This document shows positions 1-23,702 of a DNA stretch of 64,000 bases, in pieces (the first letter of the stretch is position 1; every line of letters begins with the position of its first letter). Under the pieces are notes generated by a model that was not told the origin of the DNA, did no database searches, and worked only from the letters and a program-made list of their open reading frames with translations. The position numbers were made by a program, and so were the translations under genes. Source of the DNA: an uncultured Aequorivita sp. (GTDB lineage: Bacteria; Bacteroidota; Bacteroidia; Flavobacteriales; Flavobacteriaceae). The DNA is taken from positions 62,001 to 126,000 of the forward strand of contig CAKZLK010000043.1 of the NCBI GenBank assembly GCA_937125455.1. Reading direction: 5' to 3'.

Positions 1-274
1 CCTGTTTTTGCATTAAATCCTGAGTGAGGCTTCCTGTAATTTTTCCTATTTGCAATGGATTTCCTTCCACGTAAAGTTCCCACTGGCCTTGTTTGTTTTT
101 CAAAAGAAAATTATTTCCGGCAACAAAAGTGGAGTCATTTATTTTTATTTTTTCTGGGATTGTTGCATTGTATCCACTAATGTCCGGACGGTTATGGATC
201 GATTTTGAAACTCCACAAGAATTCAGAGAAATTATGAAAATTATAAAAACAAAAAACCGCTTTGAAAATTTCAT
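1..274 (-). CDS. C45-family acyltransferase/peptidase-like lipoprotein, partial (C-terminus beyond window)
   Basis: Only the first 91 codons are inside the window; the gene runs off the left edge. The ATG at 274 lies one base after the stop codon of the cupin gene, so translation is probably coupled. The N-terminus has a lysine/arginine start, a hydrophobic stretch and a lipobox-like SLNSC near residue 20, so the product should be a lipoprotein. The visible mature part contains KNKQGQWELYVEGNPLQIGK, which resembles the start of acyl-CoA:6-aminopenicillanic acid acyltransferase-like (C45) proteins, where a short segment precedes the autocatalytic nucleophile. I recall C45-like genes in flavobacterial flexirubin loci, but the catalytic region is not visible. 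The family call is therefore an inference from a short match plus context. Confidence 0.55.
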   Translation of the reverse strand, partial: MKFSKRFFVFIIFIISLNSCGVSKSIHNRPDISGYNATIPEKIKINDSTFVAGNNFLLKNKQGQWELYVEGNPLQIGKITGSLTQDLMQKQ

Positions 275-1175: not shown

Positions 1176-2714
1176 TTAATTGATTTCTTCCTTTTTTGTA
1201 GCTTCCAGTATTTTGTTGAGCAAATATTCGCTACCCAAAATTTCCGAACATGTAACCACACCACTAATGGTAACGCCCAAAATGCCATGCATATTTAAAC
1301 TTTGGCCCGTAAAATACAAGTTTTTAATTTTTGTGCGAGGTGAAATGAACGACTTTAGTGGATTGTTAGCATCTTTTACGTAACCATACATTGAACCTTT
1401 GTTGCAACCAATATAATCGCGATAAGACAAAGGAGTTGAAGAGTAAACAGCTTCAATACAATCACGAAGATTCGGGAATTTTTTCTCCAGTTCTTTAATT
1501 ATTACTTCAGATTTATAAGCTTTGAATTCTTCATAGGTTTGGCCGCGATCATTTTTTTGGGCTGCCGTGTTAAAGGTATTTGCCCAAGGCGCTACTTCAT
1601 CAAAGTGCATATAGGTCATCACCGTAATGTTATCGCCATACTCCTCTTTATCCTTTTTGATTCCCATAGAAATCATATAGGCTTCGGGCCAACTTTCCTG
1701 AGTATAATTATGTACGTCCCAAATGGAGCGATAATCTTTAAAATGGTAATAATTATGGTTTAGGTATTTAAAGCAGTTCGGTTTCAGAACCAAATAAAGG
1801 CTAAAAGCAGCAACGGTACTTTCAATATTTTCAATCCGGCTGGTATATGATTTTCTGAAATTATCATGTCCAATCATATCCAGTGTCATCTTTGGATCAA
1901 CGTTTGAAATAAAGATGTCGCCGTATATGGTTTTACCATTTGCAGTTTGCACAGCCGTCACTAATCCGTTTTCAGTTTCAAATTTTGTAACCTCGTGGCG
2001 TTTATAGGCTTTTCCTCCTTTTTCACGAAATCTTGCCAATAGGGCTTTTGTTATTTGGCTTCCGCCGTTGATGCAGCGGTATGAGCTTTCAATATATGAA
2101 TTTACCGATAGCGCGTGCATATAAAAGGGGGTGCGATCACCTTCACCAGCATAAAGTAAATTGCTGCCGCCCAAAACTGCGCGGAGCTTTTCGTTTTCGG
2201 TTATGGAATCTATAAATTCCTTTGCCTTAATTTCAAAAAGCGCGGTATTTTCATAATAGGGCTTTCCAAGTTTTAGGCCATAAAGAGGGAAAAAACTACA
2301 CGTATCCTGCATTTTTTCACAATAAGCATCAATTGCTTTTTCCTCTTCGGGAAATTCTTCGAGTAGTGTTTTTTTGAAGTTTTCGTAACCCTGGGCATGA
2401 CGATATTCCTTGGGATCATTGCCAAAAGTAATCCTATCAAACCCATCCTCATCCATTTTTTTGAGATTGATATCGTCTAAAATATTCAAATATTTAAAAT
2501 ATCTGTATAAATTTTGACCTTCGGAAAGACCGCCAATGTAGTGAACGCCGGTATCAAAAATAGTTTTGTCCCGTACAAATGTCTGCAGGTTGCCACCAAA
2601 CTGCTGATTTTTCTCAAGTACACAAACACTATAACCTTCCTTGGAAAGAATGATTGCCGAAACAAGCCCTCCAAGACCGCTGCCGATGATTACTACATCA
2701 TATTTTTCACTCAT
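1176..2714 (-). CDS. CrtI/phytoene desaturase-like FAD oxidoreductase
   Basis: A 512-residue flavoprotein with an N-terminal dinucleotide-binding motif GSGLGG at residues 12-17, followed by the acidic ELEK-like turn (VLEKNQQFGGN). The C-terminal FTGQSLNMHGILGVTISG is typical of the phytoene desaturase / carotenoid isomerase / retinol saturase group. The start ATG overlaps the stop of the MMPL gene by 4 nt (ATGA). No carotenoid genes are near. In this aryl-polyene cluster it more likely acts on a polyene or alkyl chain (desaturation, saturation or isomerisation) than on carotenoids. The family is clear; the substrate is inferred from context only. Confidence 0.85.
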   Translation of the reverse strand: MSEKYDVVIIGSGLGGLVSAIILSKEGYSVCVLEKNQQFGGNLQTFVRDKTIFDTGVHYIGGLSEGQNLYRYFKYLNILDDINLKKMDEDGFDRITFGNDPKEYRHAQGYENFKKTLLEEFPEEEKAIDAYCEKMQDTCSFFPLYGLKLGKPYYENTALFEIKAKEFIDSITENEKLRAVLGGSNLLYAGEGDRTPFYMHALSVNSYIESSYRCINGGSQITKALLARFREKGGKAYKRHEVTKFETENGLVTAVQTANGKTIYGDIFISNVDPKMTLDMIGHDNFRKSYTSRIENIESTVAAFSLYLVLKPNCFKYLNHNYYHFKDYRSIWDVHNYTQESWPEAYMISMGIKKDKEEYGDNITVMTYMHFDEVAPWANTFNTAAQKNDRGQTYEEFKAYKSEVIIKELEKKFPNLRDCIEAVYSSTPLSYRDYIGCNKGSMYGYVKDANNPLKSFISPRTKIKNLYFTGQSLNMHGILGVTISGVVTCSEILGSEYLLNKILEATKKEEIN

Positions 2715-5700
2715 TTCGTTGTGTTTCGTGATTTTTTAAAGATACTAATATTAGTATTTCGATACACGATTTTATAGCCTAAGGTACTAATATTTTCGAT
2801 TTGTGAAGAAACACATTCTTTTAATAAAACAATGGTTTCTATGGAAAGACTACGCAATTGTTCAATCGCTTCCGATGCCATTTTTTCTGAATTGATAATC
2901 AAGGTATCACTACTTGGAAGTAATGTGGTTTGAACTGATTCTGTAAAATGAAGCCTTCCATATTTTTGTGTGATGTAGCTATTTTGAAGTATTGTTCGTG
3001 TTTCAGCATCTTCAATTAAACTGAAAATTTTTCGATCCGGCCCATCGAGCGCTAAAAGAAAATCAAGCTGTCCGAGATTTTCCGAAATATGGGCAATTGT
3101 CCCGCTTTTCTTAAGTTGAAGTATAATTTCAGAATACGTTTCTGTATTTTCCTTTAAATCTCTATTCACGTTCCTGTAAAGCGTATCGCCTTTATAGCGG
3201 TATTCTTCTAAAACAATTCTGTGAAAATATTTTGGTGTTTCTATCTTTTCACGAAGTTTCACAAACTCACTTTTAAAATAGGCTCCAATTTTTTTAGCTT
3301 GTTGTGTATGATTTTCGCCGAACGAATTATCGCCATTTTTTATTCGTGGCAAAATTTTAACTGTAATGCTTCCGTCTTTTATTATTGGACTTCCTTTTGG
3401 ATTTACTTCACTATTTCCGTGGATCAAAACCGGTAAGATATCAAGGTTGAATTGGTTCGCCAAATAAAAAGCACCTTTGTGAAAACGTTTTATTTTGTTG
3501 CTTTCGCTTCGGGTTCCCTCGGGAAATGCCATAAGCGAATAACCTTGATTTATTTTTTTCTGAAGTGGCTCCAAACTGTTTACTATACCATTGGAAACTG
3601 GATAAAAATCTGCACGCTGTACGGCTTTACCAAAAACTGGCGAATTATAAACCCAATCATTCACCAAAAAACAAATTTTTGGATGTAACATTCCGACCGC
3701 CAAAATATCAAGAAATGAAGTGTGGTTTGCAATAATTACAGCTGGTTTCGAAAAATCTTCTCCAGTATCATTGATAACTTTTTTCTTTACAAACGGATTT
3801 GTGTAAAGCACCGATTTCATAAACTTTGCTATCACTTTATGGAACCAGCCCATTTTAATTTTTTTGCTGATGGGCAAAATCGGCATCAAAGTGATGCTAT
3901 AGATTGATAGACAAATTCCGCCCAAACCGAAATAACCAAAAGAAAATAGCGAATGGATAAACATACGCGGTGTTATTGGCCGTTTTGTATGGCTGCCAAT
4001 AAAAAGTTTAAAAAGCAAAGGCTGGACTGTAAACGACGTAAACATTGCTGAAAAAATTCCAATAATTGAAACAATGGAAATGGAATACAGTGCGGGATGT
4101 TTTGCGAAAATCAAAACGCCAACGCCCAAAATGGTAGTCAAAACCGAAAGCATGATTGAGGTTTTATGCGTCGCCATCACTTTTTCGCCAGTGCGGAGTT
4201 CCTTCAGTAGACCTTTGGTCATAAAAATGCTGTAATCGATTCCCAAACCAAAGATAAATGTGGAAATGATTATATTAAAAATGTTGAATTGAATGTGGAA
4301 AAGTCCCATAATTCCCAACGTTAAAAACCATGTAAGAAATATAGGAACTGCCGTAACCAATGTTAGCGAAAAACTTCGGAAGAAAAGTAAAAGGATAAAA
4401 AGAACGGCAAGCAAGCAATATCCTATAAGACTGTTGAAATCGTTTTTAAGATTACCCAAAAAAGTCTCGTTCATTTCTTGGCGGTCAATCACAATCGTGT
4501 TTGGAATTTTCTTAAAAGTGCTTTTTATCTCTGAAGCATTGTCGTCTTTCAGTTTTATTAAAGTAGTTATGGTTGTGAAATCTGCTTCAGTCGTAATATA
4601 ATCTTCTAAAAGTACGGAAGGAATTTGCTGATAATCTTCTGGTTTCAGTGTATGGAAATCGTTATCCAAAAAAGTATAAAATTGATTAAAAGTAGTAGGC
4701 TTAAAACCGTTTTCGGCACCTCTTTCAACCAAATTGTTTTCAGTACTATCTTTTCGGGCTGCAGTCCAAAACTGATTCCATTGCACAATTTTGTTTCGCT
4801 GGTCGCGTTGGGAATTTACCAAGGCACCAATGGAACTAAAACTGTTTATTTTTCCGTTTTTCTTAAGTAATTCCAAGGTTTCGTGTATGGAATCATTCAA
4901 CTGGAGTGTTCCTTCCACAGACGTTCCGTAGGTGGCCAAGTAAACCGATTTGGAAGAAATATCAGTCAGTTCATCCAAATGCTGCATTGCTGCCTTTATT
5001 TCCGCAGGTTCGTAATTTAATTTTGAAATGTCTTTATTGAATTCAACTTTGTGATAGGTAAAAATGCTCATAACCAAAACCAATCCCAACCCAATAAGCA
5101 TCCATTTATTTTTGTGAAAAGGATAATCCGCAATTTTGTCTAAAAGGTTGATTTGCTGTTTCCGAGAAAGCGGATTTTTGTAAACCAAAGGAATAAAGAA
5201 GAGTGCAAAAACGGAAGCCCCCAAAACGCTTACTGCAGCAAAAATCCCCAAATCCTGCAAAGCTTGAGAATCTAAAAAGAGTAAGCATAAAAACGCCAAA
5301 GCGGTAGTAAGGCTGCTCATTAATATGGGTTCGGTAACGTCTTTATAAAGACTTTCCAACGTCTCATTGTTACGAATATGCGTTAAAATATGCAATGAAT
5401 AATCCAGTGTTACACCCAGCAAAACAGAACCAATTCCCAGAGAAATAGCCGAAATTTCTTCGCGAATTAAATAAAGCAAAGCCACAGCTAAAAGACCGCC
5501 AAAAAGAGTTGGTATGAAAAGAATTATCGGCACATAAAGTTTTCTATAAAAGAAAATAAAGACCAAAATAAGTAACGAGAAAGCGATGCCAACGGTAAAC
5601 TGAATATCGCTTTTAATTTGTTGCGCATTGGCAACTGCGATAAGTGCAGCTCCAAAATATTCACTACTAACTTTTCCAAAATACTTCTGATTTAATGTAT

Positions 5701-6409
5701 TTTGAAGTGCATAAAGCTCTTCTGCAAACTTTGCGTTTTCAGCCGTTTCACTGCTTGAAAATTTTGGCGTGATAAAAAGAAGGATGTTTTTTTCGTCTTT
5801 GCTCACCAAAAAACCATCCTTTAAAACAAAGTCATCCGTAACACCAAGCTGCCGTAATTTCTTTAAAGCGATGAATGAAAGACCCAACGGATCTTTTAAA
5901 ATAATATCTTTTGATACAATGCCCGAAGGCGAAATGAGTGTTCTGTAATTGGCTTCCGTAATAGCAGAAATACTGTCTTTTTGAAGTTTTCCTGAAATGG
6001 TTTTGTAATCCTGTTTATCCAAAAAAAGCGGAAGATTTTGGTAAACAAAATCCATGGTTCTGAGTAAATCGTCATCGTTTACTTTTCCACGAATGTTTTT
6101 TACATACTTTCCGGAATGAACCTGCAGACTATCCACAAATTCCGTGGCATATTGGGTAAGTTCGTCAACAGTAGTTGAATCATTTCGGTGGATGGTTACA
6201 ATGATTTTATCTGTAAAATTTACAGTTTTAAGTACTTTTTGAAGATCCTGATTTTCGCTATTTATGGGAATTAATTTCGAAATATCCTCTTCAAAACGAA
6301 TTTTGGAAACCAAAAAAATTAGTCCAAAAAGCAGCAAAAACAGGGCAAACGCGCTTGCTATTTTATTTTTCAATAAAAATTTATATGCTTTGAAAAACCA
6401 GTTACCCAT
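2711..6409 (-). CDS. MMPL/RND-type exporter fused to PlsC-type acyltransferase
   Basis: About 1232 residues from the ATG at 6409, which overlaps the preceding glycosyltransferase stop by 8 nt (ATGGGTAA). Residues ~1-800 form an MMPL-type RND permease: two sets of membrane helices each preceded by a large periplasmic loop, with GLGIDYSIF and GVTLDYSLH motifs. From ~880 comes a lysophospholipid acyltransferase domain with NHTSFLD (HX4D, near residue 897) and PEGTRS (near 965). A further ~200-residue C-terminal part has a weak Rossmann/methyltransferase-like look but no clear SAM motif. Aryl-polyene clusters encode an MMPL exporter (ApeM-like) as a separate protein, so the fusion could couple acylation to transport of the pigment. 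Operon position and LolA-like partner support an envelope-localisation role. Confidence 0.88.
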   Translation of the reverse strand: MGNWFFKAYKFLLKNKIASAFALFLLLFGLIFLVSKIRFEEDISKLIPINSENQDLQKVLKTVNFTDKIIVTIHRNDSTTVDELTQYATEFVDSLQVHSGKYVKNIRGKVNDDDLLRTMDFVYQNLPLFLDKQDYKTISGKLQKDSISAITEANYRTLISPSGIVSKDIILKDPLGLSFIALKKLRQLGVTDDFVLKDGFLVSKDEKNILLFITPKFSSSETAENAKFAEELYALQNTLNQKYFGKVSSEYFGAALIAVANAQQIKSDIQFTVGIAFSLLILVFIFFYRKLYVPIILFIPTLFGGLLAVALLYLIREEISAISLGIGSVLLGVTLDYSLHILTHIRNNETLESLYKDVTEPILMSSLTTALAFLCLLFLDSQALQDLGIFAAVSVLGASVFALFFIPLVYKNPLSRKQQINLLDKIADYPFHKNKWMLIGLGLVLVMSIFTYHKVEFNKDISKLNYEPAEIKAAMQHLDELTDISSKSVYLATYGTSVEGTLQLNDSIHETLELLKKNGKINSFSSIGALVNSQRDQRNKIVQWNQFWTAARKDSTENNLVERGAENGFKPTTFNQFYTFLDNDFHTLKPEDYQQIPSVLLEDYITTEADFTTITTLIKLKDDNASEIKSTFKKIPNTIVIDRQEMNETFLGNLKNDFNSLIGYCLLAVLFILLLFFRSFSLTLVTAVPIFLTWFLTLGIMGLFHIQFNIFNIIISTFIFGLGIDYSIFMTKGLLKELRTGEKVMATHKTSIMLSVLTTILGVGVLIFAKHPALYSISIVSIIGIFSAMFTSFTVQPLLFKLFIGSHTKRPITPRMFIHSLFSFGYFGLGGICLSIYSITLMPILPISKKIKMGWFHKVIAKFMKSVLYTNPFVKKKVINDTGEDFSKPAVIIANHTSFLDILAVGMLHPKICFLVNDWVYNSPVFGKAVQRADFYPVSNGIVNSLEPLQKKINQGYSLMAFPEGTRSESNKIKRFHKGAFYLANQFNLDILPVLIHGNSEVNPKGSPIIKDGSITVKILPRIKNGDNSFGENHTQQAKKIGAYFKSEFVKLREKIETPKYFHRIVLEEYRYKGDTLYRNVNRDLKENTETYSEIILQLKKSGTIAHISENLGQLDFLLALDGPDRKIFSLIEDAETRTILQNSYITQKYGRLHFTESVQTTLLPSSDTLIINSEKMASEAIEQLRSLSIETIVLLKECVSSQIENISTLGYKIVYRNTNISIFKKSRNTTK

Positions 6410-7595
6410 TATCGAGAATCTTTTTCCGTTCAAACAACGTTAAGAAAACGTAGCCCACAATTCCGCAAGTCACAGCTGCTGTTATTGAAAGTGCCAAACT
6501 ACCAACAATATAGGATTTTAAATATTTCATAAGCTCCAAACTTGGATCAATTTCGCTCATGGAGAGTACAAAATTTTCACCTAAAAGCCAACTGCCCAAT
6601 TTCAAACTGAAATAAAGTATCAAAGGAATAAACGGTGGCAAGCTTACGTTTGAAAAAGCAAAAGCAATCACTTTGTTCAAATTAAAAAGTAGCGCCAAAA
6701 AAATAACGGCTACGGTGTGAAACCCCCAAATGGGGGAAAGACCAATAAAAACGCCAAGTGCAATTGAAAAGGCTTTCTTTTCAGAAGAATCGTCACTGCC
6801 CAAAAAGTCCTCCATTATAAAACGCTTGAGTCCTTTTTTTTTTAATTTCTTAAAAAGATTTAGTGGTTTTATGTAGAGAAATGTAACTAATACAAACCAA
6901 GTATTTAAAATACTGATACGCGTAAAATCCTTAAATGGACGAAAATGTGAAACCCGATCTTCTAATTCATAATGCACCTGAATTGGGATGTTTTTAACTT
7001 CAATATCATTCCATGCGGCTTTTACGATTGCTTCAATTTCAAACTCGAACTTTTTTGTGTAAAATTTCAGTTTTTTCATCGCAAAAAGAGGATATAAACG
7101 AAAGCCAGATTGTGTATCCTGCAGGCGTTTTCCGGTTTCTACCCAAAACCAAAAATTGGAGAACTTGTTGCCAAAACTGCTCTTTTTTGGAACGCCGTGT
7201 TGGGTCATATTCCTCGAACCGATGAGTAAGACCTCTTTATTAGCTTCCTTTTCCAGTGCTTCGATAAAAACTGGAATGTCTTCGGGAAAATGTTGCCCAT
7301 CGCTGTCAATGGTAATGGTGTAGTGATAGCCCAAACTATCAGCGTGTTTAAATCCTTGGCGCAGGGCATTGCCCTTACCTATGTTTTCCGTAAGATGAAT
7401 TTGTTGGATTTGCGGAAACTTTACCAGTATTTCGGAGGTAGAATCTGTGGATCCGTCGTTCACAACAATAACATCTTCCGTATATACCAAAACCCCTTCA
7501 ATAACCCTTTGTAATGTTTTGTAATTATTATAGGTGGGAATAATTACACAACATTTCAGGTTTTTAAGTTTTTCTGAAATTAGATTTTGGTTCAT
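6402..7595 (-). CDS. GT2 glycosyltransferase with C-terminal DUF2062 membrane domain
   Basis: A 397-residue protein. Residues ~12-230 form a DPM1-like family 2 glycosyltransferase: CVIIPTYNN, VVNDGSTDS and the nucleotide-sugar metal site TIDSDGQHFPED. Residues ~255-390 form a DUF2062 domain with about three membrane helices (GVFIGLSPIWGFHTVAV is typical). It probably transfers a sugar from a nucleotide or polyprenyl-phosphate donor at the inner membrane. A 141-nt gap separates it from the upstream gene. That is the largest gap inside this half of the cluster, so a second promoter may sit at 7596-7736, although I see no clean one. The substrate is unknown; it may modify pigment or the anchoring lipid. 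Confidence 0.87.
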   Translation of the reverse strand: MNQNLISEKLKNLKCCVIIPTYNNYKTLQRVIEGVLVYTEDVIVVNDGSTDSTSEILVKFPQIQQIHLTENIGKGNALRQGFKHADSLGYHYTITIDSDGQHFPEDIPVFIEALEKEANKEVLLIGSRNMTQHGVPKKSSFGNKFSNFWFWVETGKRLQDTQSGFRLYPLFAMKKLKFYTKKFEFEIEAIVKAAWNDIEVKNIPIQVHYELEDRVSHFRPFKDFTRISILNTWFVLVTFLYIKPLNLFKKLKKKGLKRFIMEDFLGSDDSSEKKAFSIALGVFIGLSPIWGFHTVAVIFLALLFNLNKVIAFAFSNVSLPPFIPLILYFSLKLGSWLLGENFVLSMSEIDPSLELMKYLKSYIVGSLALSITAAVTCGIVGYVFLTLFERKKILDNG

Positions 7596-9828: not shown

Positions 9829-10597
9829 AGGCTTCAATTTCAAGTAAGCGGTCCACTGGAACCGACTGCAATTTGTGCGATTGCAAAAATAGCAATAACT
9901 GTTCCAATACGGCAATGGTTTTTGCACTGCTATCGTGGAGCAAAATAATATCTCCCTTTTTCAAATTGGATGTAATTCGTTTTAAAATTTTTTCTTCGGA
10001 AAGGTTTATCGTGTCCAGGCTGCGTTTGCTCCAACCGATTGAATAATGTTCCGTGTTTTTTAAAGCTTTTTTGATGTTTGGGTTTGTCACCCCAAAAGGT
10101 GGACGGAAAAGTTTCAAATCCTTTCCAGTAATTTCTTTCAATATTGAATTTGTTTTTTTTAATTCAGCAGTAACTTTTTCTGTAGAAAAAAATCCAAAGT
10201 TCTTGGAATGCGAAAACGAATGGTTACCTATTGTGTGACCTTCATTTATTATTTGCTGAACTAACTCAGGATACTTTTCTGCATTTCTTCCTATTAAAAA
10301 GAAAGTAGCTTTTACGCCGTATTCTTTCAAAAGCGACAAAACTTTTGGCGTAAATTCTAGATTTGGCCCATCGTCAAAAGTGATTGAAATATAGTTTTCC
10401 GAAACTTTATAATGGTGATTCAACGACTTTAGGTGATAGTTCAATCTAATTTGAAAAGACCCAATAGCAGTAATCATAACCCAGATAAAAACAAACACAA
10501 CATATAGCCATGCCGGAATATCACCGAAGAAACCTGCGAGTAGCAGTCCAAAAAACACTACTAAAGCCAGCGCGTTTATGGTATAGAACCTTAACAT
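9821..10597 (-). CDS. NodB-type polysaccharide deacetylase family protein
   Basis: 258 residues from the ATG at 10597, which overlaps the preceding ketosynthase-like stop by 7 nt. The N-terminus has two membrane helices (INALALVVFFGLLLAGFF and LYVVFVFIWVMITAI). A NodB domain follows with the metal/catalytic motif SITFDDGPN and the zinc histidines in IGNHSFSH, plus FRPPFG. Family members remove N- or O-acetyl groups from sugars. Its presence within an aryl-polyene operon, next to a glycosyltransferase, suggests that the pigment or its anchor is glycosylated, or that the fold is reused for another deacylation. The fold is firm; the role is inferred. Confidence 0.85.
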   Translation of the reverse strand: MLRFYTINALALVVFFGLLLAGFFGDIPAWLYVVFVFIWVMITAIGSFQIRLNYHLKSLNHHYKVSENYISITFDDGPNLEFTPKVLSLLKEYGVKATFFLIGRNAEKYPELVQQIINEGHTIGNHSFSHSKNFGFFSTEKVTAELKKTNSILKEITGKDLKLFRPPFGVTNPNIKKALKNTEHYSIGWSKRSLDTINLSEEKILKRITSNLKKGDIILLHDSSAKTIAVLEQLLLFLQSHKLQSVPVDRLLEIEAYA

Positions 10598-11655
10598 TTT
10601 TTCAGTAAAACAAGGCTGTGATTTTGGCCACGATATTGGTTGTAGCAAAGAACCGTTTTAATTTCTGGAATTTTGATTTCGTTAATTTTTATAATTTTTG
10701 GAATTGTTTGGGTTTTCAAAATTTTTGAGCCCAACCAAACTCCAAAAGCAGAAACAGTATTGTTTTCACCAACCAAATGTTTGTAAAAAATTTGCTGGAT
10801 ATTGCTAAAATTACTTTCGGAAAGTTGATTGTAATATGTATCAAAATCAACATCTCCGTTGTTTCCGAAAACGACAACATCAATGTCTTCAACTTTCACA
10901 TTGTTTTCTATCAAAAAGCTTTCAATTGTTTCAGATACTTTTTCTTTTGGAAGTGTATTAAAAGTTTCAACGGCAACCAATTCCGCATAGCAACTTTCTT
11001 GTTTTTCATTGGAAACAACAAAAAAATTGGCTCCTTCGCTGAAAACTGCACCTTCCGTTTTAGAGTTTAAAACCGTTGAAATAGTTACAGGCTCTGGCTT
11101 TATGTGATTAACGACACGATGCACCTTTGTTGTATGATCTCCCAATTCTTCAACACCACCAACCAAAATATGTTCCGCTTCGTCGTTTTCGAGTTGCATT
11201 TTTGCATCCAACAAAGCAGATTCAAACGAAATCGCCGAATGTACGTAGGTAAAATTATAAGCCTTACATTCCATTCCCAATGCAATCTGCCCAGCAACAG
11301 TATTGTGGGTACTTTGAATGAAGGATGTTGGCGTTAAATACTGTTCGTTATTGTCAATAATGGCACTCACAAATTTCTCGGAATCAATCATACAACCCAT
11401 TCCGGTTCCTGTGATTATTGCATCCACAGTTTCTATTCCTGCTTCGTCCATCGCAATTTTGGAAGCGACCACGCCCATTTTTATGCCTTTTGCCATTCTA
11501 CGAGCGGCGGCGGGCGGAATGTATTGTTTGTAATCTGGATCAACTGCAAAAATTACGGTGTCGTTGTAATCAGTAATTTTATCCAAAAACATACTATTAT
11601 CATACGTTTTTTGGGGCGAAATGGAAGCGATGCTATTTATGTATACCTTCTTCAT
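10591..11655 (-). CDS. ketosynthase-like chain-length-factor-type protein
   Basis: 354 residues from the ATG at 11655, which overlaps the upstream ketosynthase stop by one base (TAATG). The thiolase/ketosynthase fold is recognisable, but the active-site Cys segment reads FTYVHSAISFESAL, with Val138 where the nucleophile should be. The usual HGTxTxxND and GHT segments are replaced by FGNNGDVDF and GENNTVSAFG, so both catalytic His are gone. This is what is expected of a chain-length factor pairing with the adjacent active ketosynthase at 11655-12857. The ApeC/ApeO pair of aryl-polyene clusters is a precedent. Heterodimer formation is inferred. Confidence 0.85.
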   Translation of the reverse strand: MKKVYINSIASISPQKTYDNSMFLDKITDYNDTVIFAVDPDYKQYIPPAAARRMAKGIKMGVVASKIAMDEAGIETVDAIITGTGMGCMIDSEKFVSAIIDNNEQYLTPTSFIQSTHNTVAGQIALGMECKAYNFTYVHSAISFESALLDAKMQLENDEAEHILVGGVEELGDHTTKVHRVVNHIKPEPVTISTVLNSKTEGAVFSEGANFFVVSNEKQESCYAELVAVETFNTLPKEKVSETIESFLIENNVKVEDIDVVVFGNNGDVDFDTYYNQLSESNFSNIQQIFYKHLVGENNTVSAFGVWLGSKILKTQTIPKIIKINEIKIPEIKTVLCYNQYRGQNHSLVLLKKC

Positions 11656-12857
11656 TACGCTTCTTTTGAAAATATTACTGTAGAACAATTCCCTCCAAAA
11701 CCAAGTGAATTTGAAAGCACCGTGTTCAATTCTTTTTCTTTCAATTCCGTTTGTGGAATCATTGAAAATTCCTTCATCGGAGTCTTAAAATTCAGGTTTG
11801 GGAAAATCACATTATTTTGAAGTGCCAAAACGGAATAAACCGCTTCAATCGCTCCAGCCGCGGCCAAAGTGTGTCCTGTGAATGCTTTTGTTGAGCTAAA
11901 TTCCGGTAAATCTTCACCAAAAACGCGAAGTATCGCCCTGCCTTCTGAAAGATCGTTATTTCCAGTGGCAGTTCCGTGGGCGTTTATATAATCTATATCT
12001 GAAGCCTTTAAATCTGCAACTTTTAATGCTTTTTCCATTGCCAATGTGGCGCCGTCGCCATTATCGGAAGATGCCGTTTGGTGAAAGGCATCGTTTGCAT
12101 TGCCATAGCCCTTTACATATGCAAGAATTCTTTTGTTTTCGGCTTTAACAACTTCGTCACTTTCCAAAACCAAAAATGCAGCGGCTTCCCCTAAATTCAA
12201 ACCTTTTCGGTTTTCGTCAAAAGGAGTGTTATAGGTATCACTCAATATCATCAAAGTTTTGAAACCGTTGATTGTAAATTTTGAAAGACAGTCTGCGCCA
12301 CCGACCAAAACTCTATCTAATTTCCCAGATTTAATTAAACGCGCGCCAAGCATAATTGCATTTGCTGCGGAAGAACAAGCGGTACTAATTGTTGTTACCA
12401 AGCTCTCTTCAATCCCCAATTGCTCAGCGATTTTCTGTGTGGAATCGCCCGCGTGATGACTTTCAATATATTTTTGTGGTGTTTTTTCGGTAAGATATTT
12501 GTAATAATATTTTTCAGTCATATCCATTCCGCCAACGCTAGTTCCGGAAACGATACCTGTTTTGTATTTTTTGATATCGGTTATTCCTGCATTGGCAATG
12601 GCCTCTTTTGCTGCTATAGCACCGAGCATTGCTGTACGAGAATAATTATTTTCAGGTGGAAGATTAAGTTTGGCAATCAATTCATCATTCGTGAATTTAA
12701 TTTCCCCAACCATAATTTCATCTCGCTGAACAGTTTCAATATTTTCAACGCGGCTGATACCTTTTCTGCAGTTTATGAGCGCATCATAGTTTTCTGTCAC
12801 ATTGTTGCCAATGGCAGAAATAATACCCATTCCGGTTATGGCTACGCCTTTACCCAT
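11655..12857 (-). CDS. 3-oxoacyl-ACP synthase (KAS I/II-type), pigment cluster
   Basis: A 400-residue FabF-type ketosynthase. The catalytic Cys161 (STACSSAANA), His294 (NAHGTATGNND) and His329 (FTGHTLAAAG) are all present. It condenses acyl chains with malonyl-ACP. It lies between an ACP gene (17-nt gap) and a chain-length-factor-like gene (1-nt overlap), which strongly suggests that it is the elongating half of a KS-CLF pair building the polyene chain. Its length is normal for the family. Confidence 0.93.
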   Translation of the reverse strand: MGKGVAITGMGIISAIGNNVTENYDALINCRKGISRVENIETVQRDEIMVGEIKFTNDELIAKLNLPPENNYSRTAMLGAIAAKEAIANAGITDIKKYKTGIVSGTSVGGMDMTEKYYYKYLTEKTPQKYIESHHAGDSTQKIAEQLGIEESLVTTISTACSSAANAIMLGARLIKSGKLDRVLVGGADCLSKFTINGFKTLMILSDTYNTPFDENRKGLNLGEAAAFLVLESDEVVKAENKRILAYVKGYGNANDAFHQTASSDNGDGATLAMEKALKVADLKASDIDYINAHGTATGNNDLSEGRAILRVFGEDLPEFSSTKAFTGHTLAAAGAIEAVYSVLALQNNVIFPNLNFKTPMKEFSMIPQTELKEKELNTVLSNSLGFGGNCSTVIFSKEA

Positions 12858-16018: not shown

Positions 16019-16447
16019 TTAAAGCCCCATTTTCTTCTTCCAATTCGCAAAAAATTCTGGAGGGGTTAACGAAAGTTCACCTTCTTCATTTAAAAAAACC
16101 TGGATGGTTTCGCCCAAACAGGCAAGCCTTCCTTTTGGATCAAAAATTCGATAGTGAAAAATCATTTTCGCCGCGGGCGAATTTATAAAGTTGGTCTTAA
16201 TAGTTGCCACATCGCCATAACGCAAAGGTAGCTTGTGTTCGCACGAAGATTTTACAATTGGGGAAGTGTATCCATTTGCTTTCTGTTCCAAATAGGAAAT
16301 CCCGTGTTCTCGTCCAAAAGCCTCCCGACCATCTTCAAAATACTGGATATAGTTGCCGTGCCATACAATCCCCAAGGGGTCGGTTTCTGTAAAACGAACG
16401 CGGATTTCAGAAGTAAAGCTTATTTCATTTTTAGTGTTAGACGGCAT
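16019..16447 (-). CDS. 4HBT-type acyl-CoA/ACP thioesterase
   Basis: A 142-residue hotdog thioesterase of the YbgC/4-hydroxybenzoyl-CoA type. The signature TDPLGIVWHGNYIQYFEDGRE includes the catalytic Asp of this family near residue 22. It could release or proofread acyl chains on the ACPs (ApeK-like role). Its start overlaps the ABC permease stop by 11 nt. Confidence 0.88.
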   Translation of the reverse strand: MPSNTKNEISFTSEIRVRFTETDPLGIVWHGNYIQYFEDGREAFGREHGISYLEQKANGYTSPIVKSSCEHKLPLRYGDVATIKTNFINSPAAKMIFHYRIFDPKGRLACLGETIQVFLNEEGELSLTPPEFFANWKKKMGL

Positions 16448-17705
16448 TCTTTTTTCTATTATAAATTATTGCTATTATGACTGTTGTGAGGAAGAACAAC
16501 AATAATAACGAAATTTCGGGAAGGATTTTAACAAATCCAACATTTCTTAAAAAAACATCGTAAAATGCTTCCAAGCCCCAATTCATCGGGGAGATTTTGG
16601 AAACTAATTGCATAAACTTCGGCATTACAAAAACGGGGACCCAAACCCCACCAAGTGCAGCCAAAATAACGACCGACGTGGCTCCAAACGGAGCAGCCTG
16701 CTCTTGTGTATTTGCGATGGTTCCCATAAGCAATCCCAGGCCTATTGCAGCCAAACCAGAGAAAATAGCAACGATATAAAGCATTGGCAATTTTCCCGAA
16801 ACATCAACTCCTGGAAGGCCTATTGCCGGAAAAAGATAAATTCCAACAAGCAACATTAACGTGAATTGTATTAAACAAACACCCAAATAAACAATAGTTT
16901 TTCCGCCCAGAACTGTGGCGTAATTAACCGGCTGAGTGCGTAAACGCACAAAAGTGCCTTGGTTTTTTTCCTTTACCAAATTGATGGAAAGTGGAACGAT
17001 GATAAAGAAAATAGCAAACAATGTCCATGCTGGAACGTTGTGCTGGGCTGAGTTTGGAATGATTTCCTCGTTGTTTTTTGTTGGAAGAATTTCTTTGAAA
17101 GCAATAAAGTTTTCAGTGTCGAAAATTGGTTCTGAATCTTCTTCGTCCAATTCTGTTTGAAAAGCTTTGTAAATACTTTGTGTTTCAATTTTTGAAATCA
17201 TTTTTTCGATACCATTCTTCACCGAAGATTTGAAACTAACTTGTGTTGCGGGATCAAAATACAAACGGACTTCCTTTTGCGAAATAACTTCTTTTGTAAT
17301 ATTCAAAGTATCTTCCTCCAGTCCAAATTTTGATAAAATTCCTTCCACATTTTGATCAACTTTCCTCTGAAGCGAAGCTGAAAGATTTTTGGGAATTACT
17401 ATTGCAAGTTGATAGTTCCCTGAGAAAACTGCTTCTTTTGCTTCTTTCTCAGAAGATTTTTGAATAATTTCAAACGAGTTGGATTCTGCAAGGTTTTCAA
17501 TAATATTTTTTGAAACTTCGCCATTGTCATTATCCACCAAAAGCACAGGAATTTTAATATCGCTTATGGTTTTGAAGGTGCTGTCCTGAACCAAAGTAAT
17601 TACAATCAGCAATAAAATTGGCATTATAAAAAGAATAGCTATTCCGCCCAAATCACGGACCAGCAAGAGCATTTCTTTATATGTGGAAGTCCAAAGTTTA
17701 TGCAT
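16437..17705 (-). CDS. ABC-2 type transporter permease, pigment cluster
   Basis: 422 residues from the ATG at 17705, which overlaps the ATPase stop by 8 nt (ATGCATAA). It has one N-terminal helix (GGIAILFIMPILLLIVITLV), a large extracytoplasmic domain (residues ~45-230) and five or so C-terminal helices. This is the YhgE/ABC-2 layout of membrane exporters. With the adjacent ATPase it forms a complete exporter, most likely for the pigment or a precursor across the inner membrane. Substrate assignment is by location only. Confidence 0.88.
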   Translation of the reverse strand: MHKLWTSTYKEMLLLVRDLGGIAILFIMPILLLIVITLVQDSTFKTISDIKIPVLLVDNDNGEVSKNIIENLAESNSFEIIQKSSEKEAKEAVFSGNYQLAIVIPKNLSASLQRKVDQNVEGILSKFGLEEDTLNITKEVISQKEVRLYFDPATQVSFKSSVKNGIEKMISKIETQSIYKAFQTELDEEDSEPIFDTENFIAFKEILPTKNNEEIIPNSAQHNVPAWTLFAIFFIIVPLSINLVKEKNQGTFVRLRTQPVNYATVLGGKTIVYLGVCLIQFTLMLLVGIYLFPAIGLPGVDVSGKLPMLYIVAIFSGLAAIGLGLLMGTIANTQEQAAPFGATSVVILAALGGVWVPVFVMPKFMQLVSKISPMNWGLEAFYDVFLRNVGFVKILPEISLLLLFFLTTVIIAIIYNRKKNAV

Positions 17706-18441
17706 GATCGCGAAGGGCTTTACCGGTTTGTGATAAAAACACATCCTCAAGATTGTTGGCGCCTGTTTGGTTTTTTATCAATTGCGAAGGAATGCCTTTT
17801 ACAATAATTTCGCCATTGTCAATTATGGCTACGTGGGTGCAGAAAAATTCCGCTTCGTTCAAATGGTGTGAAGTATAAACAATTGTAGTTCCTTGCGTAT
17901 TTAGCAATTTTAAATAATCAATTATTACGTTTTTTGATTGTACATCTACGCCAACAGTGGGCTCGTCCAAAAACAACACTTTGGGTTGGTGAAGTATTCC
18001 AGCAATCAAGTTTACGCGGCGTTTCATGCCTCCGGAAAAAGTATCTGTCTTTTTATGGGCAAATTTTGAAAGCCCCATTACCTCGAGATGCTCATTGATG
18101 GATTTTTTAAGAACTTTACCTTTAATTCCATACATACTTCCAAAGTATTGTAAATTTTCAAAAGCGGTAAGCGTTGGATATAAGGCATATTCCTGCGGCA
18201 CGATACCAATTAATTGTTTTAATTGGTTTTTGTTTTCCTTAAAATTCAACCCGTTAATTGTGAATGAACCAGAAGTGGGTTTCAGCAAAGAAGTTAACAT
18301 TGAAATCAACGTAGTTTTTCCAGCGCCATTTGGACCGAGCAATCCGTAAATTTCACCATCTTCAACTTTCAAATCAAGGTCTTTTACCGAAAAGTTCTCG
18401 GCATCCTTATATTTTTTTGAAAGTTGGTTTATTTCTATCAT
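17698..18441 (-). CDS. ABC transporter ATP-binding protein, pigment cluster
   Basis: A 247-residue ABC ATPase. Walker A is GPNGAGKTT (residues ~36-44), the signature is FSGGMKRRV, Walker B is VLFLDEPTVGVD, and the switch histidine is in TSHHLNEAE. It pairs with the permease immediately downstream. The subfamily (CcmA/DrrA-like) commonly drives export of hydrophobic natural products. Confidence 0.93.
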   Translation of the reverse strand: MIEINQLSKKYKDAENFSVKDLDLKVEDGEIYGLLGPNGAGKTTLISMLTSLLKPTSGSFTINGLNFKENKNQLKQLIGIVPQEYALYPTLTAFENLQYFGSMYGIKGKVLKKSINEHLEVMGLSKFAHKKTDTFSGGMKRRVNLIAGILHQPKVLFLDEPTVGVDVQSKNVIIDYLKLLNTQGTTIVYTSHHLNEAEFFCTHVAIIDNGEIIVKGIPSQLIKNQTGANNLEDVFLSQTGKALRDHA

Positions 18442-18471: not shown

Positions 18472-19467
18472 TTAAATTGCCTTTTTCAACTTTTTAAAGA
18501 ACACTTTTTCCAAATCGGCAATATGATCTAATTGGTCAGCAACTTTATTGTAGCTGTCAGTTTGAGCACTACGGTTTTTATAAATACGCGATGCCTCAAG
18601 GGCGAAATCACGCCACAAATCACCAATATCGGTCATTTCCTTTGAAAGTTTAATAAGCTTTTCATTGCCTAAAAGCTTACCAGCTTCTTGTAAAAAAGCT
18701 GCGTAAATATAACGGAATCCGCCACCGCCAGTGCCAATTTCCTCTTGCATTCGCACTACTTGTCCCAAATAATGGTTTGCAGTTTTAATTCCTTTTTTCT
18801 TTGGCCATTTTCGAATTAAGGCTGCTATTTTGTGGATTCCTTTAACCCCAACAAACGAAACTGGCGCCAGCATTGCTTTGCAAGTATCTTTAATTCCTTT
18901 TACAATTGCCTTTTCAAGTTCCAATTTTTCTGGAAAAGCGATGGGATAATACATATGTCCTTTTGGCGCAAATGCTCCTTTTGCAAACCGCACTTTTTCC
19001 AATTCTTTTTCAGAAAGGGAAGTAACGTTTTCCATTACGGGATCACTGATTAAATAACGATTGTTTTCCTTACCGTATACCACCATGTTGTGGGCATTGA
19101 AATGAAAACGGTATTCATCTGGAAAATACACCAAGTTGTATACACCAACTTGTAGCCCAACAGGATTATTTTTTTCAAGATTTTCATCCAAACGTGCTTT
19201 AGCGTCTTTGGGGTTGCTAAATTTTTCACGTTTCATTTTTACGCCCGTGCGCTTTGCGAACTTTTTAAAAATATGTCCAGGCATTGCGCGATACGTAATC
19301 ACAGGAGCATGATTTACCTTTAGCAACGGAATATAACAAAACAACAAACCGCTGCCAATACCAAAAACCATGGGTTCGCTAACGCTAAAACCGTTGTGTT
19401 TCATTAGGTTCGAAACCACTCCATTTTCACAGTGGGCAGATTGGTGGTGGGTAAAGTCTATTTCCAT
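18472..19467 (-). CDS. BtrH-like (BtrH_N) putative acyltransferase
   Basis: A 331-residue protein with an N-terminal BtrH-type papain-like domain: Cys13 (HHQSAHCENGVVSN), His126 (FHFNAHNMVVYG) and Asp142 (YLISDPVM) could form a Cys-His-Asp triad. The C-terminal ~130 residues are helical (DUF4872-like). BtrH of butirosin biosynthesis moves an acyl group from an ACP to an amine. Here the gene follows darA, darB and two hotdog genes, and the pigment made by such clusters is an ester of an aryl-polyene acid and a dialkylresorcinol. I therefore infer that it may catalyse the ester-forming acyl transfer. The start overlaps the upstream stop by one base. No signal peptide is present. Confidence 0.82.
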   Translation of the reverse strand: MEIDFTHHQSAHCENGVVSNLMKHNGFSVSEPMVFGIGSGLLFCYIPLLKVNHAPVITYRAMPGHIFKKFAKRTGVKMKREKFSNPKDAKARLDENLEKNNPVGLQVGVYNLVYFPDEYRFHFNAHNMVVYGKENNRYLISDPVMENVTSLSEKELEKVRFAKGAFAPKGHMYYPIAFPEKLELEKAIVKGIKDTCKAMLAPVSFVGVKGIHKIAALIRKWPKKKGIKTANHYLGQVVRMQEEIGTGGGGFRYIYAAFLQEAGKLLGNEKLIKLSKEMTDIGDLWRDFALEASRIYKNRSAQTDSYNKVADQLDHIADLEKVFFKKLKKAI

Positions 19468-19868
19468 TATTTTGAAATATTCTGAAGTTCTTCAACTGAA
19501 ATTTCAAAAACCTCAGCATAATTGTTCAATGTTTTATGGCTTAATTTTCTAAAAACTGACGGTCTAAAGTGTCGCTTCACTTTCCATTGCCAGAAGCCAA
19601 CGTAGCTTGCCAAAATACCAACATCCATTTTGTGGAGTTCCATATAATATTCAATGGGACTTGTTTCGCCCGCAATTACGCGTTTTTTGGCATCTTCAAT
19701 ACGCTCGTTTATTTCTTCGATTGCATTATTTAAAGCTACGGTTTTTGGTTCCCAGCCGCTACTTCTTTCAGTGGTGTATTCGCCATTGTCATCAACAGCA
19801 TAACACAGTTCCTTGAAATTTGCAGATTCCAAGTTGCTTTTGTCCTGTGGCACTTCTTTTTTCTTCAT
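19467..19868 (-). CDS. small cytoplasmic protein of unknown function in pigment cluster
   Basis: A 133-residue soluble protein, charged and probably mostly helical. A C-terminal segment (SHKTLNNYAEVFEISVEELQN) looks like the tail of an XRE-type helix-turn-helix or an adaptor helix pair. Translation is coupled to its neighbours: 2-nt gap upstream and 1-nt overlap with the BtrH-like gene. I do not recognise a family. Its fixed place beside the BtrH-like enzyme suggests that it is a partner of that enzyme. Confidence 0.72.
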   Translation of the reverse strand: MKKKEVPQDKSNLESANFKELCYAVDDNGEYTTERSSGWEPKTVALNNAIEEINERIEDAKKRVIAGETSPIEYYMELHKMDVGILASYVGFWQWKVKRHFRPSVFRKLSHKTLNNYAEVFEISVEELQNISK

Positions 19869-20766: not shown

Positions 20767-21900
20767 TTAAACTACCGTCAAATATGCATACGAATAAGCG
20801 AAGCGAGCACTTTCTGGAACTTGAAGAAATATTTTATCTCCTTTTTTAAGTTTTCCGGAATGCACCAATTCTTCTAACATAAGATAGATAGAACCCGCGC
20901 CAACATTACCCACTCTTTGGAGGTTCAAAAACCATTTTTCCCATGGTAAATGCAAGCCTTGTAGTTCAATTTCGTTGTAAAGATTTTCCTTGAAATAATA
21001 AGAAGAAATATGTGGAAGGTAATAATCAATATCGTCTTCGGTAATATTGTGCTTTTCCATGGCCAGCTTCATGCTTGCAACTCCTTTTTGAAGGATATTT
21101 TCACCAAGCAATTTCACATCTTGCTTCATAGCAAAAAGCGATTTTTTACCCCAAACATCTGCAGGGTATTCGCTCCATGGTTTTAGGCTTCCATCTTCTA
21201 GCTTGTCACCGCCGGCATACATACAGGTGTCAAGTTCAAACGCATAACTGTAGCCTTCCATCCATTCAATTTTAAGGGGCGTTTGACCGTTAGGTTCACT
21301 TTCTAAAAGGAAAGCACCCGCGCCGTCGGAAAGCATCCAACGCAAAAATTCTTTGTTAAAGGCAAGAATGGGATGCTCTTCAATTTCTTGTAAATGTGCT
21401 ACTTCGTCTTCAAAAATATCTGACTTCATCCACGATGAAGTACGTTCAGAACCTGTACAAACAGCATTTTTCACTTGTTCAGATTTTATGGCCATATAAC
21501 CATATTTCAAAGCATTCATTCCACTACAGCAAGCGCCGGATGGGGAATTTACTTCAAGATTTCCATTTTTTAAAAAGCCGTGCACCATTGCGGCGTGGCT
21601 TGGTAATATCTGGTCTGGACTGGAAGTGCCACAGGACAGCAATTCAATTTCGTTTTTGTTGAAAGTTTCATCGCACAATGCTTCAACTGCCTTTGCTGCA
21701 AGTTGTGCATTGTTATGGGTTACTTTTCCATCTTTATCAATGGCGTAGTAACGTGTTTTTATTTGGTTGTTCCGAAGGATAATGCGGCGGGCTTTTGAGG
21801 TTTTTCCATTTATAACTCCAAGTTTTTCCTCCATCGCCTCATTGTCCACAGGCTCATTGGGCAAAAACTTCGCAATCCTTGTAATATATACGTTCTTCAT
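20767..21900 (-). CDS. darB: DarB: KAS III-type dialkylresorcinol-forming ketosynthase
   Basis: A 377-residue KAS III-like enzyme. The nucleophile segment is SPSGACCSGMNAL, with Cys125 in the usual place before S-G. The His (LPHISSYYF) and Asn (RVGNVGAGSIY) segments of the KAS III triad are visible. DarB enzymes condense a 3-oxoacyl thioester with an enoyl thioester to give a cyclohexanedione, which is aromatised to the dialkylresorcinol. The gene overlaps darA by one base (TAATG). The pairing with a DarA homologue and a polyene cluster makes the flexirubin assignment strong. Confidence 0.92.
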   Translation of the reverse strand: MKNVYITRIAKFLPNEPVDNEAMEEKLGVINGKTSKARRIILRNNQIKTRYYAIDKDGKVTHNNAQLAAKAVEALCDETFNKNEIELLSCGTSSPDQILPSHAAMVHGFLKNGNLEVNSPSGACCSGMNALKYGYMAIKSEQVKNAVCTGSERTSSWMKSDIFEDEVAHLQEIEEHPILAFNKEFLRWMLSDGAGAFLLESEPNGQTPLKIEWMEGYSYAFELDTCMYAGGDKLEDGSLKPWSEYPADVWGKKSLFAMKQDVKLLGENILQKGVASMKLAMEKHNITEDDIDYYLPHISSYYFKENLYNEIELQGLHLPWEKWFLNLQRVGNVGAGSIYLMLEELVHSGKLKKGDKIFLQVPESARFAYSYAYLTVV

Positions 21901-22817
21901 TAATCTTGCTTTAATGCAACTGATGAATAATATGCTTTATCCCGCTGTATTTTACGATACATTGGAAAATAAGTGAGCAAAAATACAACAAATACTATTG
22001 GTGCTATTAGCCATATTGCAAATAACAAATAATATTTAAAAAAAACGAGCCATTTCTTTCTTTCTTCACCTTCTTTTTTAATTAAGTGATTGGCCCATTT
22101 TGTGAAAACAACATTTCCACGAATATCGGTGGCAATCAATGATGGATCTACTTTTACAGCACCCACATCCAAAAGATCTTGTTGCAGACTTGAATATTCA
22201 TTTTGAATCAAAGCCTTTTTAATAGGAAATCCAAAACGGGAAGCTGCTTCTATATCGTTATCGGAAACTCCTGGCTTTGGAAAGACTCCAAGCATTTTGG
22301 TCTTTTTTCCGCCCATCAACCAATGCACGATTGTAATGACACTGATGTGGTTGAGATTTCTGTCGACTAAAGCAACGTTTCCAACCAAATTTGCATTGTT
22401 TGAAACCAATAATTTCTTCATTTTTTCCTGCGCCATAATCCACATATTTCGGCTGGCGGAAACTGTGACAACAGGTGTATTGCCTAATATTTTTTTTGCT
22501 TCTTCAGATTTTAAAAATGAGTTGATAGGGATGGAAGGAGTTAAGTACCAAGTGGTGTAGCCTAAAACTACTAAATCGTAATTTTTCTGAAGAATTTCCT
22601 GAGGAATCGCTTCCAGCGGCGCTGGAATTTGGAGGAATGTTTCTGGAAAAGCACCATAAAATTCTTCCTGTTTCCAAGGAAAAGGAAATTTTTTCCTAGG
22701 AACAATTTCGCAATAAGAAATATTTACTTTTTTATCTGAAACTGTTGAAGCAATGTTCTTCAGAATATCAAAAAGCTGTCCGGTTTGTGAATAATAAATT
22801 ACGAGTACTTCTTTCAT
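21900..22817 (-). CDS. darA: DarA: dialkylresorcinol condensing/aromatising protein
   Basis: A 305-residue protein with a flavodoxin-like N-terminal domain (VLVIYYSQTGQLFDIL, phosphate-binding loop SQTGQ) and a C-terminal hydrophobic helix (YYLLFAIWLIAPIVFVV, residues ~265-288) followed by basic residues, so it is probably anchored to the inner membrane. DarA homologues are described as acting with DarB in dialkylresorcinol formation, aromatising the cyclohexanedione product. The flavodoxin fold fits an oxidation step. The gene lies immediately upstream of darB. Confidence 0.9.
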   Translation of the reverse strand: MKEVLVIYYSQTGQLFDILKNIASTVSDKKVNISYCEIVPRKKFPFPWKQEEFYGAFPETFLQIPAPLEAIPQEILQKNYDLVVLGYTTWYLTPSIPINSFLKSEEAKKILGNTPVVTVSASRNMWIMAQEKMKKLLVSNNANLVGNVALVDRNLNHISVITIVHWLMGGKKTKMLGVFPKPGVSDNDIEAASRFGFPIKKALIQNEYSSLQQDLLDVGAVKVDPSLIATDIRGNVVFTKWANHLIKKEGEERKKWLVFFKYYLLFAIWLIAPIVFVVFLLTYFPMYRKIQRDKAYYSSVALKQD

Positions 22818-22820
22818 TTT

Positions 22821-23702
22821 TTAATCATCCGTTTCCCAAAAATCAAAATAGTTGAACCATTGCAAGGGATATTTTTTGAGCATCCATTCCACACTTTGGG
22901 TATATTTTTTTAGTAGTCCTTGAGCGTCTCGGTTTTTAACTTCAACTTGGCGGGCATACAGATGGTAGTGCTTGTTGGTTTCCTTCATAACGTACACAAA
23001 TAACACTGGAACGTTGAGCCTACTCGCCAATAAAAATGGGCCGGCGGGAAAGTTTGCCTCTTTTCCCATAAGTGATTCCGTCAAAACTTTTTGGTCTTTC
23101 ATATATCTATCGCCTGTGAAACAGACCAATTCGCTATTAGTCAGCGCATTGTTTATTTCAAAAATATGCGACATATCTTCCTTTACCAAAATAAATTTCA
23201 CCTTGGAACGCATGGTTACTTTTTCCATATATTCCTTGATGTTTTTATGTTCAGCATCGGTAGTAACAAGACTTATTTGCGAACGGGTATCAATTTCTTC
23301 AAAAAAGAATTCAGCTATTTCAAAATTACCTACATGTGCACTAATCATTATGCCTCCTTGTTTCTTATCAAGAAGATCAATAATGTTTTCCACCCCATCA
23401 CATTCTTGCGTAAACCTATTTTTGAGACCAGAGGAAATTGCGGCCTTGTCTATAATGGTTTTCCCGAAGGTGTAATAACTTTTATATATACTAAAAAGAC
23501 TTTTAAAAGAGGAGTATTTCAGTCTTTTTCTAAAATAATAGTAGATGGAACGGGTACTTTTTCCGGCGAAGAATACGTAATAAAGAGCAACGAAGTAGAG
23601 CAGTCCGTATGCAGCGCGAACACCTAATTTTCGTATAAAGAATATAAATATTTTATACCCTAAAACGGTTCCTTTGCTTTTGCCTTCCCATTCACCTGCC
23701 AT
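22821..23702 (-). CDS. LpxL/HtrB-like lysophospholipid acyltransferase family protein
   Basis: A 293-residue inner-membrane acyltransferase of the LpxL/LpxM type. An N-terminal membrane segment (GLLYFVALYYVFFAG) is followed by the HX4E catalytic motif HVGNFE (His123, Glu128) and the C-terminal QWFNYFDFW. It probably transfers an acyl chain from ACP to a lipid-like acceptor. In aryl-polyene clusters a homologue attaches pigment or fatty acid to an anchor. Here it is also a rival candidate for joining the polyene acid to the resorcinol. It precedes darA by 3 nt. Confidence 0.88.
   Translation of the reverse strand: MAGEWEGKSKGTVLGYKIFIFFIRKLGVRAAYGLLYFVALYYVFFAGKSTRSIYYYFRKRLKYSSFKSLFSIYKSYYTFGKTIIDKAAISSGLKNRFTQECDGVENIIDLLDKKQGGIMISAHVGNFEIAEFFFEEIDTRSQISLVTTDAEHKNIKEYMEKVTMRSKVKFILVKEDMSHIFEINNALTNSELVCFTGDRYMKDQKVLTESLMGKEANFPAGPFLLASRLNVPVLFVYVMKETNKHYHLYARQVEVKNRDAQGLLKKYTQSVEWMLKKYPLQWFNYFDFWETDD

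Follow-up and report, generated by a model that had tools for sequence, protein, structure and literature searches.

Results

In the window, i.e., the whole 64,000-nucleotide stretch of DNA that was analysed, positions 18472-19467 are filled by a single open reading frame on the minus strand, which encodes a protein of 331 residues; plus-strand frame 1 across the same positions contains several stops. The sequence-only reading had placed a BtrH-like protein here, and such a protein is indeed encoded: residues 12-143 (19039..19434, minus strand) match the Pfam domain BtrH_N (PF14399, E 1.8e-52, 177.6 bits against a cut-off of 29.7) and residues 154-327 (18487..19008, minus strand) match DUF4872 (PF16169, E 1.2e-64, 217.7 bits against a cut-off of 28). 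A match to Peptidase C39 (PF03412) reached 15.1 bits, below the Pfam cut-off of 22, which leaves the protein outside that family. Over residues 4-328 it scores 517.1 bits (cut-off 300) with the NCBIfam equivalog model NF053550 (DarH_acyl, ‘BtrH-related acyltransferase DarH’), of which it is a plain member with no sequence difference, and it is the one DarH match in the source genome. The gene had been put forward as a candidate for the ester-forming step of flexirubin biosynthesis, and it stands as one; what had been overlooked is that NCBIfam already names an acyltransferase DarH. In short, darH is an ordinary, already named part of the flexirubin cluster, and we propose that its product is a polyenoyl-ACP:dialkylresorcinol O-acyltransferase.

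The location of the gene downstream of darA, darB and the hotdog genes had been described correctly, but its constant partner, darG, which sits in between, had been missed. This gene (19467..19868, minus strand) encodes 133 residues that match the NCBIfam model NF053545, ‘flexirubin biosynthesis protein DarG’ (214.4 bits, cut-off 170), and no Pfam family over cut-off; its stop codon and the darH start share one base (TAATG). Also on the minus strand lie darB (20767..21900), the gene for the dialkylresorcinol ketosynthase (NCBIfam NF053539, 669.8 bits, cut-off 550), and beside it, in a conserved pairing, a gene for a flavodoxin-like dialkylresorcinol aromatase (21900..22817), whose flavodoxin match is below cut-off and whose name, darA, we took from the published gene layout. 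Of the two hotdog-like genes near this pair, one has a sub-threshold FabA match and the other no Pfam match. An LpxL-like acyltransferase gene (22821..23702, minus strand; PF03279) adjoins darA. On the other side of darH, the same strand carries an ABC transporter ATPase (17698..18441), identified by Walker A and signature motifs in its sequence, and its partner, an ABC-2 type permease (16437..17750) with NCBIfam matches below cut-off, hereafter the ABC pair.

Further along the minus strand are the polyene ketosynthase (11655-12857), a chain-length-factor-like (CLF) gene (10591-11688) that served as our polyene marker in Bacteroidota, a 1240-residue MMPL exporter with a C-terminal PlsC domain (2711..6433; PF03176, PF01553) and, at the window’s edge, the first 91 residues of an AAT/C45-like lipoprotein (1..274). 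The last of these has a lipoprotein-like N-terminus, and PF03417 matches the whole protein, whose gene extends beyond the window (L042:15614-17275); we take it to be the C45-like lipoprotein named in the sequence-only reading. Left of the window the cluster continues (L042:11062-17275, G000:C43) with this PF03417 (AAT) protein and an AMP-binding ligase-like gene, followed by rimP- and nusA-like genes.

We then considered DarG more closely. In 58/58 loci rows it precedes DarH on the same strand (57 distinct genomes, with the window’s own as the 58th), with another open reading frame between the two in a single locus, L104. This constancy suggests that DarG and DarH form a two-gene unit. The DarG HMM matched all three positive controls and nothing in 30 stretches that have polyene genes only, DarB only or a DarH paralogue. 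As for what DarG might be, Pfam gave only a weak helix-turn-helix likeness (HTH_26 in 9/37 members, best E 0.002). The idea that DarG is an AziU2-like partner of an AziU3-like protein was set aside, as a 37-row profile retrieved no convincing solved relative (best E 0.35). Separately, one Bacteroidales MAG (G395) carries two DarG-DarH pairs: a canonical one (L155:7304-8735), accompanied by DarA, DarB and the ABC pair, and a second, divergent one (L067:4992-6386, L141:8993-10390), whose DarH is 37% identical and which lies inside a second polyene cluster. No DarA or DarB was found in the stretch of this second cluster that was examined, and the divergent pair may couple a polyene with some other acceptor.

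The catalytic triad that had been proposed for DarH, i.e., Cys13 as nucleophile (codon 19429..19431), His126 as base (19090..19092) and Asp142 as third member (19042..19044; all minus strand), was followed across 59 aligned DarH rows (one gene entered twice, which leaves 58 distinct genes, each from its own genome; L080 and L081 were omitted, being truncated at the locus edge). The positions had been given correctly, and all three residues are invariant in 59/59 rows. Loss of the triad among cluster homologues, which had been named beforehand as a point to check, thus did not occur in the alignment. Among seven more distant paralogues, Cys13 and His126 are present in 7/7, and Asp142 is aligned in 4/7. 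Cys13 and His126 thus appear to be conserved across the BtrH_N / DUF4872 family, where their role would be catalytic. Within DUF4872, the motif E-x-x-G-T-G-G-(G/A)-G-F-R (residues 242-252, 18712..18744, minus strand) is near-absolute. In a FastTree phylogeny, the 59 DarH rows stood apart from the seven paralogues (support 0.88), and the 26 proteobacterial DarH rows formed one clade (support 0.998).

To relate DarH to the two halves of the pigment, we recorded its co-occurrence with DarB and with a polyene marker, which differed between samples: the window CLF in Bacteroidota and PF13723 elsewhere. A CLF match was counted at E<1e-40, a limit set after seeing a gap between 1.9e-41 and 1.6e-9. 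Among 395 Bacteroidota genomes, DarH passed its cut-off in 31, DarB (model NF005293) in 32 and the CLF marker was present in 34, although polyene-only genomes are under-counted here, since some polyene clusters of this phylum may escape the window CLF (PF13723 is present in the control Bacteroides ihuae). All 31 DarH genomes had both DarB and the marker. The genomes that exceeded this set were G238, with DarB and the marker, and G118 and G394, with the marker. In three further genomes (G280, G254 and G219) a DarB-like protein fell below cut-off; among the matches listed, these had no DarH match, and their best CLF match was 1.6e-9, in G280. As an aside, the CLF matches in G285, G367, G057, G265, G118 and G394 each contain one internal TAA, which is probably an edge effect of overlapping genes.

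The same association was seen in Gammaproteobacteria. Among 321 genomes, DarB passed its cut-off in 18 and DarH in 15, all within those 18. PF13723 was sought in 70 of the genomes and found in all 15 with DarH; by class, it was present in 18/18 with DarB over cut-off, 0/4 with weaker DarB, 0/2 with only a DarH paralogue and 6/46 others. A third sample came from a contig scan with a GC-rich pattern derived from the DUF4872 motif, and so is not random but biased towards GC-rich genomes and DarH. It yielded 17 loci, 15 with DarH (37-64% identity) and two with distant paralogues (26-27%); the DarH hosts include Azoarcus, Thauera, Dechloromonas agitata, Solimonas, Sinimarinibacterium, Niabella, Parapedobacter and deltaproteobacterial MAGs. 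DarB passed its cut-off in 15/15 DarH hosts and 0/2 paralogue hosts, and PF13723 was found in 14/15 and 0/2, respectively, the one miss being G397, a MAG. Without overlap, the scan contributed 14 further DarH genomes, 14 with DarB and 13 with the marker.

Since one genome (G399) was present in two samples, the pooled set comprised 60 distinct DarH genomes, with DarB in 60/60 and the polyene marker in 59/60 (all but G397). DarH was thus found only where resorcinol genes occur, and, with that one exception, only where polyene genes occur as well. It was not found in the eight polyene-only genomes identified (G118 and G394; G412, G423, G439, G451, G459 and G460) nor, among the matches listed, in seven genomes with a weaker DarB and no marker (G280, G254 and G219; G488, G713, G430 and G635). 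Neither half therefore seems to need DarH, which appears where both meet. It was also absent from 14/14 control genomes, among which Bacteroides ihuae shows PF13723 together with a match to the DarB family; two controls match the DarB family, and one of them, either Bacteroides ihuae or the other, does so over cut-off. In G017, DarH is retained with the DarG-DarH, DarA-DarB and CLF genes lying in three different places. Fisher tests gave very small values, which ignore the kinship of the genomes and are given no weight here; the genomes are related, and the counts are not independent events. Taken alone, this pattern would not separate the ester-forming enzyme from DarG or the ABC pair.

Conversely, of 50 sampled genomes in which DarB passes its cut-off and a polyene marker is present, 46 have DarH, the exceptions being G238, G515, G609 and G632. 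In the last three, DarA and DarB share a contig and PF13723 lies on a different one, and no DarG, DarH or ABC pair was found in the stretches examined. Split contigs are no excuse for their lack of DarH, because three DarH genomes (G399, G573 and G590) likewise have their polyene genes on other contigs. In G238, a chromosomal DarB sits behind a TetR gene (L043:8521-10252), with no DarA found in the 20 kb examined. DarB genes placed directly behind a TetR/HTH regulator were also observed on three Bacteroidales plasmids, of Prevotella, Bacteroides and Phocaeicola (L063, L064 and L065), with no DarA in the stretches examined. On the strength of this shared layout and of the 20 kb searched for DarA, we take the G238 gene to be a probable orphan DarB and not part of a resorcinol pathway, which would make G238 no true counterexample. 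The product of such TetR-linked orphan DarB proteins may be a signal. All four exceptional genomes are predicted not to make the ester.

We further compared polyene clusters with and without DarH, labelling orthologues by their best blastp matches to window proteins, such that a gene scored as absent may be a missed divergent one, above all in Gammaproteobacteria. The polyene clusters of G118 and G394 showed no DarA, DarB, DarG, DarH or ABC pair in the stretches examined, and that of G238 showed no DarA, DarG or DarH, its lone DarB lying elsewhere. The ABC ATPase was found in none of the DarH-less polyene clusters examined. In these three DarH-less Bacteroidota clusters the LpxL-like gene was present in 3/3, the MMPL gene in 3/3, its PlsC part in 2/3 (missing in G118, whose 812-residue MMPL protein, L045:13375-15813, lacks it), the AAT/C45-like gene in 2/3 and the AMP-ligase in 2/3. 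Being kept without the resorcinol module, these genes probably serve the polyene itself. We judged that the LpxL-like acyltransferase serves the polyene and not the ester; PlsC, the AAT-like gene and the AMP-ligase are less firmly excluded, since each is missing from one of the three clusters. By comparison, nine joined clusters (six Bacteroidota and three proteobacterial) contained DarA, DarB, DarG and DarH in 9/9 and the ABC pair in 8/9. The comparison indicates that genomes expected to join the two halves are recognisable by DarG and DarH and, in most cases, by the ABC pair; of these proteins it is DarH that has the Cys-His-Asp triad and an acyltransferase family name, which would single it out as the candidate enzyme.

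Two further features of the joined clusters were recorded. A gene for 162 residues with a signal-peptide-like start (window 7737-8225) is present in 5/6 tabulated Bacteroidota joined clusters, in several of them beside DarA, and in 0/3 DarH-less polyene clusters; it may be another gene of the resorcinol module. In addition, four proteobacterial DarH loci (L135:5741-7262, L137:6252-7726, L138:4753-6083 and L082:6039-7446) encode an acyl carrier protein (ACP) of their own, which bears an LDS(L/V)D motif, and a ketosynthase whose active-site cysteine is kept; ABC transporter genes adjoin them. This ACP fits an ACP-bound donor for DarH, and could also serve resorcinol synthesis.

Among the closest known systems is BtrH of the butirosin pathway, which acylates an amine. 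DarH and BtrH have the BtrH_N domain in common, a likeness drawn from domain and description; the two differ in the proposed acceptor of DarH, a phenol, in its proposed acyl group, a long aryl polyene, and in the presence of DarG beside DarH. That BtrH transfers acyl groups from an ACP, as the sequence-only reading had it, agrees with the literature, where it is described as an acyl carrier protein:aminoglycoside acyltransferase (PMC10318531).

Searching a DarH profile against the PDB retrieved only AziU3 (7wuw, 7wux) and Azi29 (8gs1) as natural relatives, and these weakly: the whole-sequence E was 1.2e-4, and the best stretch, residues 79-145 around His126, had an E of about 0.004, near search noise, with a designed helical protein scoring better in the same search (E 1.8e-6). 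The match to these two azinomycin pathway proteins leaves the Cys13 region of DarH uncovered. AziU3 and Azi29 carry out aziridine chemistry (aziridine formation), so that belonging to this family does not by itself imply acyl transfer.

Flexirubins have a long history as a marker of Bacteroidota (PMC3992019), a use that has been disputed (PMC3949708). In Azoarcus sp. BH72, the same ester was predicted from mass spectrometry for the pigment arcuflavin, and the genes are ordered darA-darB-darD-darE-darF(ABC)...darI(ABC permease)-darC(ACP)-darJ(KS) (PMC3949708). Here darE (azo0290), beside darD, darB and darA, is annotated as a ‘BtrH-like peptidase’ of the dar cluster; naming differs from ours, as darH in BH72 is a PilT-domain gene, and the accessible parts of that paper give no role for darE (PMC3949708). 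Among the loci compared here, those of Thauera, Dechloromonas, an Azoarcus MAG and a further two Rhodocyclales have a DarH with 43-46% identity. For the joining step, the sequence-only reading had stated that no enzyme was firmly assigned. We likewise found no tested enzyme in the literature searched, but a proposal does exist, namely a ‘ligase-like enzyme (FlxW)’ (PMC3992019, in its accessible parts). No test of DarH or DarG was found either, in a search of open-access papers, which may miss a published assignment.

Discussion

Taken together, these results support the hypothesis that DarH is the enzyme that forms the flexirubin ester, a reading to which we assign a probability of roughly 0.75. 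It had been offered as one candidate among several, and is strengthened in two respects: DarH tracks DarB and the polyene genes in two phyla, and the rivals named alongside it (the LpxL-like acyltransferase, the PlsC domain of the MMPL fusion and the C45-like lipoprotein), while indeed present in the cluster, persist in polyene clusters that have no resorcinol module. The phyletic argument, the weakening of these rivals and the DarG-DarH unit are what is new here.

Several other explanations were weighed against this one. The ester could be formed by another protein of the cluster, with DarH as an accessory: the LpxL-like, PlsC and AAT/C45-like proteins all belong to acyltransferase families, the cluster also contains an AMP-ligase-like gene, and the FlxW proposed for the join was described as ligase-like (PMC3992019). 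Yet DarH-less Bacteroidota polyene clusters hold the LpxL-like and MMPL genes throughout, and PlsC, the AAT/C45-like gene and the AMP-ligase in two of three, and we consider this explanation unlikely. DarH could instead work solely on the resorcinol half, for example by providing DarB with acyl chains, by swapping these or by trimming off products, as might be imagined from its position among the dar genes and from the presence of DarB in every DarH genome. Nevertheless, darA and darB of Chitinophaga pinensis, expressed heterologously, gave a dialkylresorcinol (PMC3992019), three genomes (G515, G609 and G632) have DarA and DarB without DarH, and all but one of the 60 DarH genomes carry the polyene marker; a role confined to the resorcinol thus seems highly improbable.

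A third possibility concerns export and not ester formation, with DarH acting as a C39-like protease or as an accessory of the ABC transporter. The sub-threshold C39 matches, the placement of BtrH_N near families C39 and C70 (PMC10318531) and an ABC ATPase within 3 kb of DarH in 37/58 loci rows all lean this way. Against it, DarH is not fused to a transporter, the product of the pathway is not a peptide, and no ABC ATPase was found in the remaining 21/58 rows, many of whose loci reach only about 1.5 kb; we hold this explanation to be quite improbable.

If DarH does form the ester, the reaction may be pictured as follows. The Cys13 thiol, activated by His126 and Asp142, would take the completed aryl-polyene acyl group from the phosphopantetheine arm of an ACP, and its transfer to Cys13 would give an acyl-enzyme. 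A phenol group of the dialkylresorcinol, itself the product of DarA and DarB, would then attack this acyl-enzyme, releasing the polyene ester. DarG would probably act as a stabilising or docking partner of DarH, and the adjoining ABC pair would move the product on. In this scheme the role of DarG is inferred, as are the ACP as donor, the acyl-enzyme and the ester as product.

More tentatively, and with rather less than even confidence, we suggest that DarG and DarH constitute an obligate two-protein phenol O-acyltransferase, in which the BtrH fold is reused and DarG docks the ACP or holds the resorcinol. The pair would then be a portable joining module through which, in Bacteroidota and Proteobacteria alike, the separate pathways for polyene and resorcinol come to yield one hybrid membrane pigment, and the divergent pair of G395 would join a polyene to another acceptor.

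In the literature searched, the joining enzyme has so far only been guessed at, and assigning the step to DarH (with DarG) makes it testable. If the assignment is true, phenol ester formation would be added to the repertoire of BtrH-type enzymes, and the DarG-DarH gene pair would serve as a marker that predicts from a genome whether the bacterium makes a joined pigment or a separate polyene and resorcinol.
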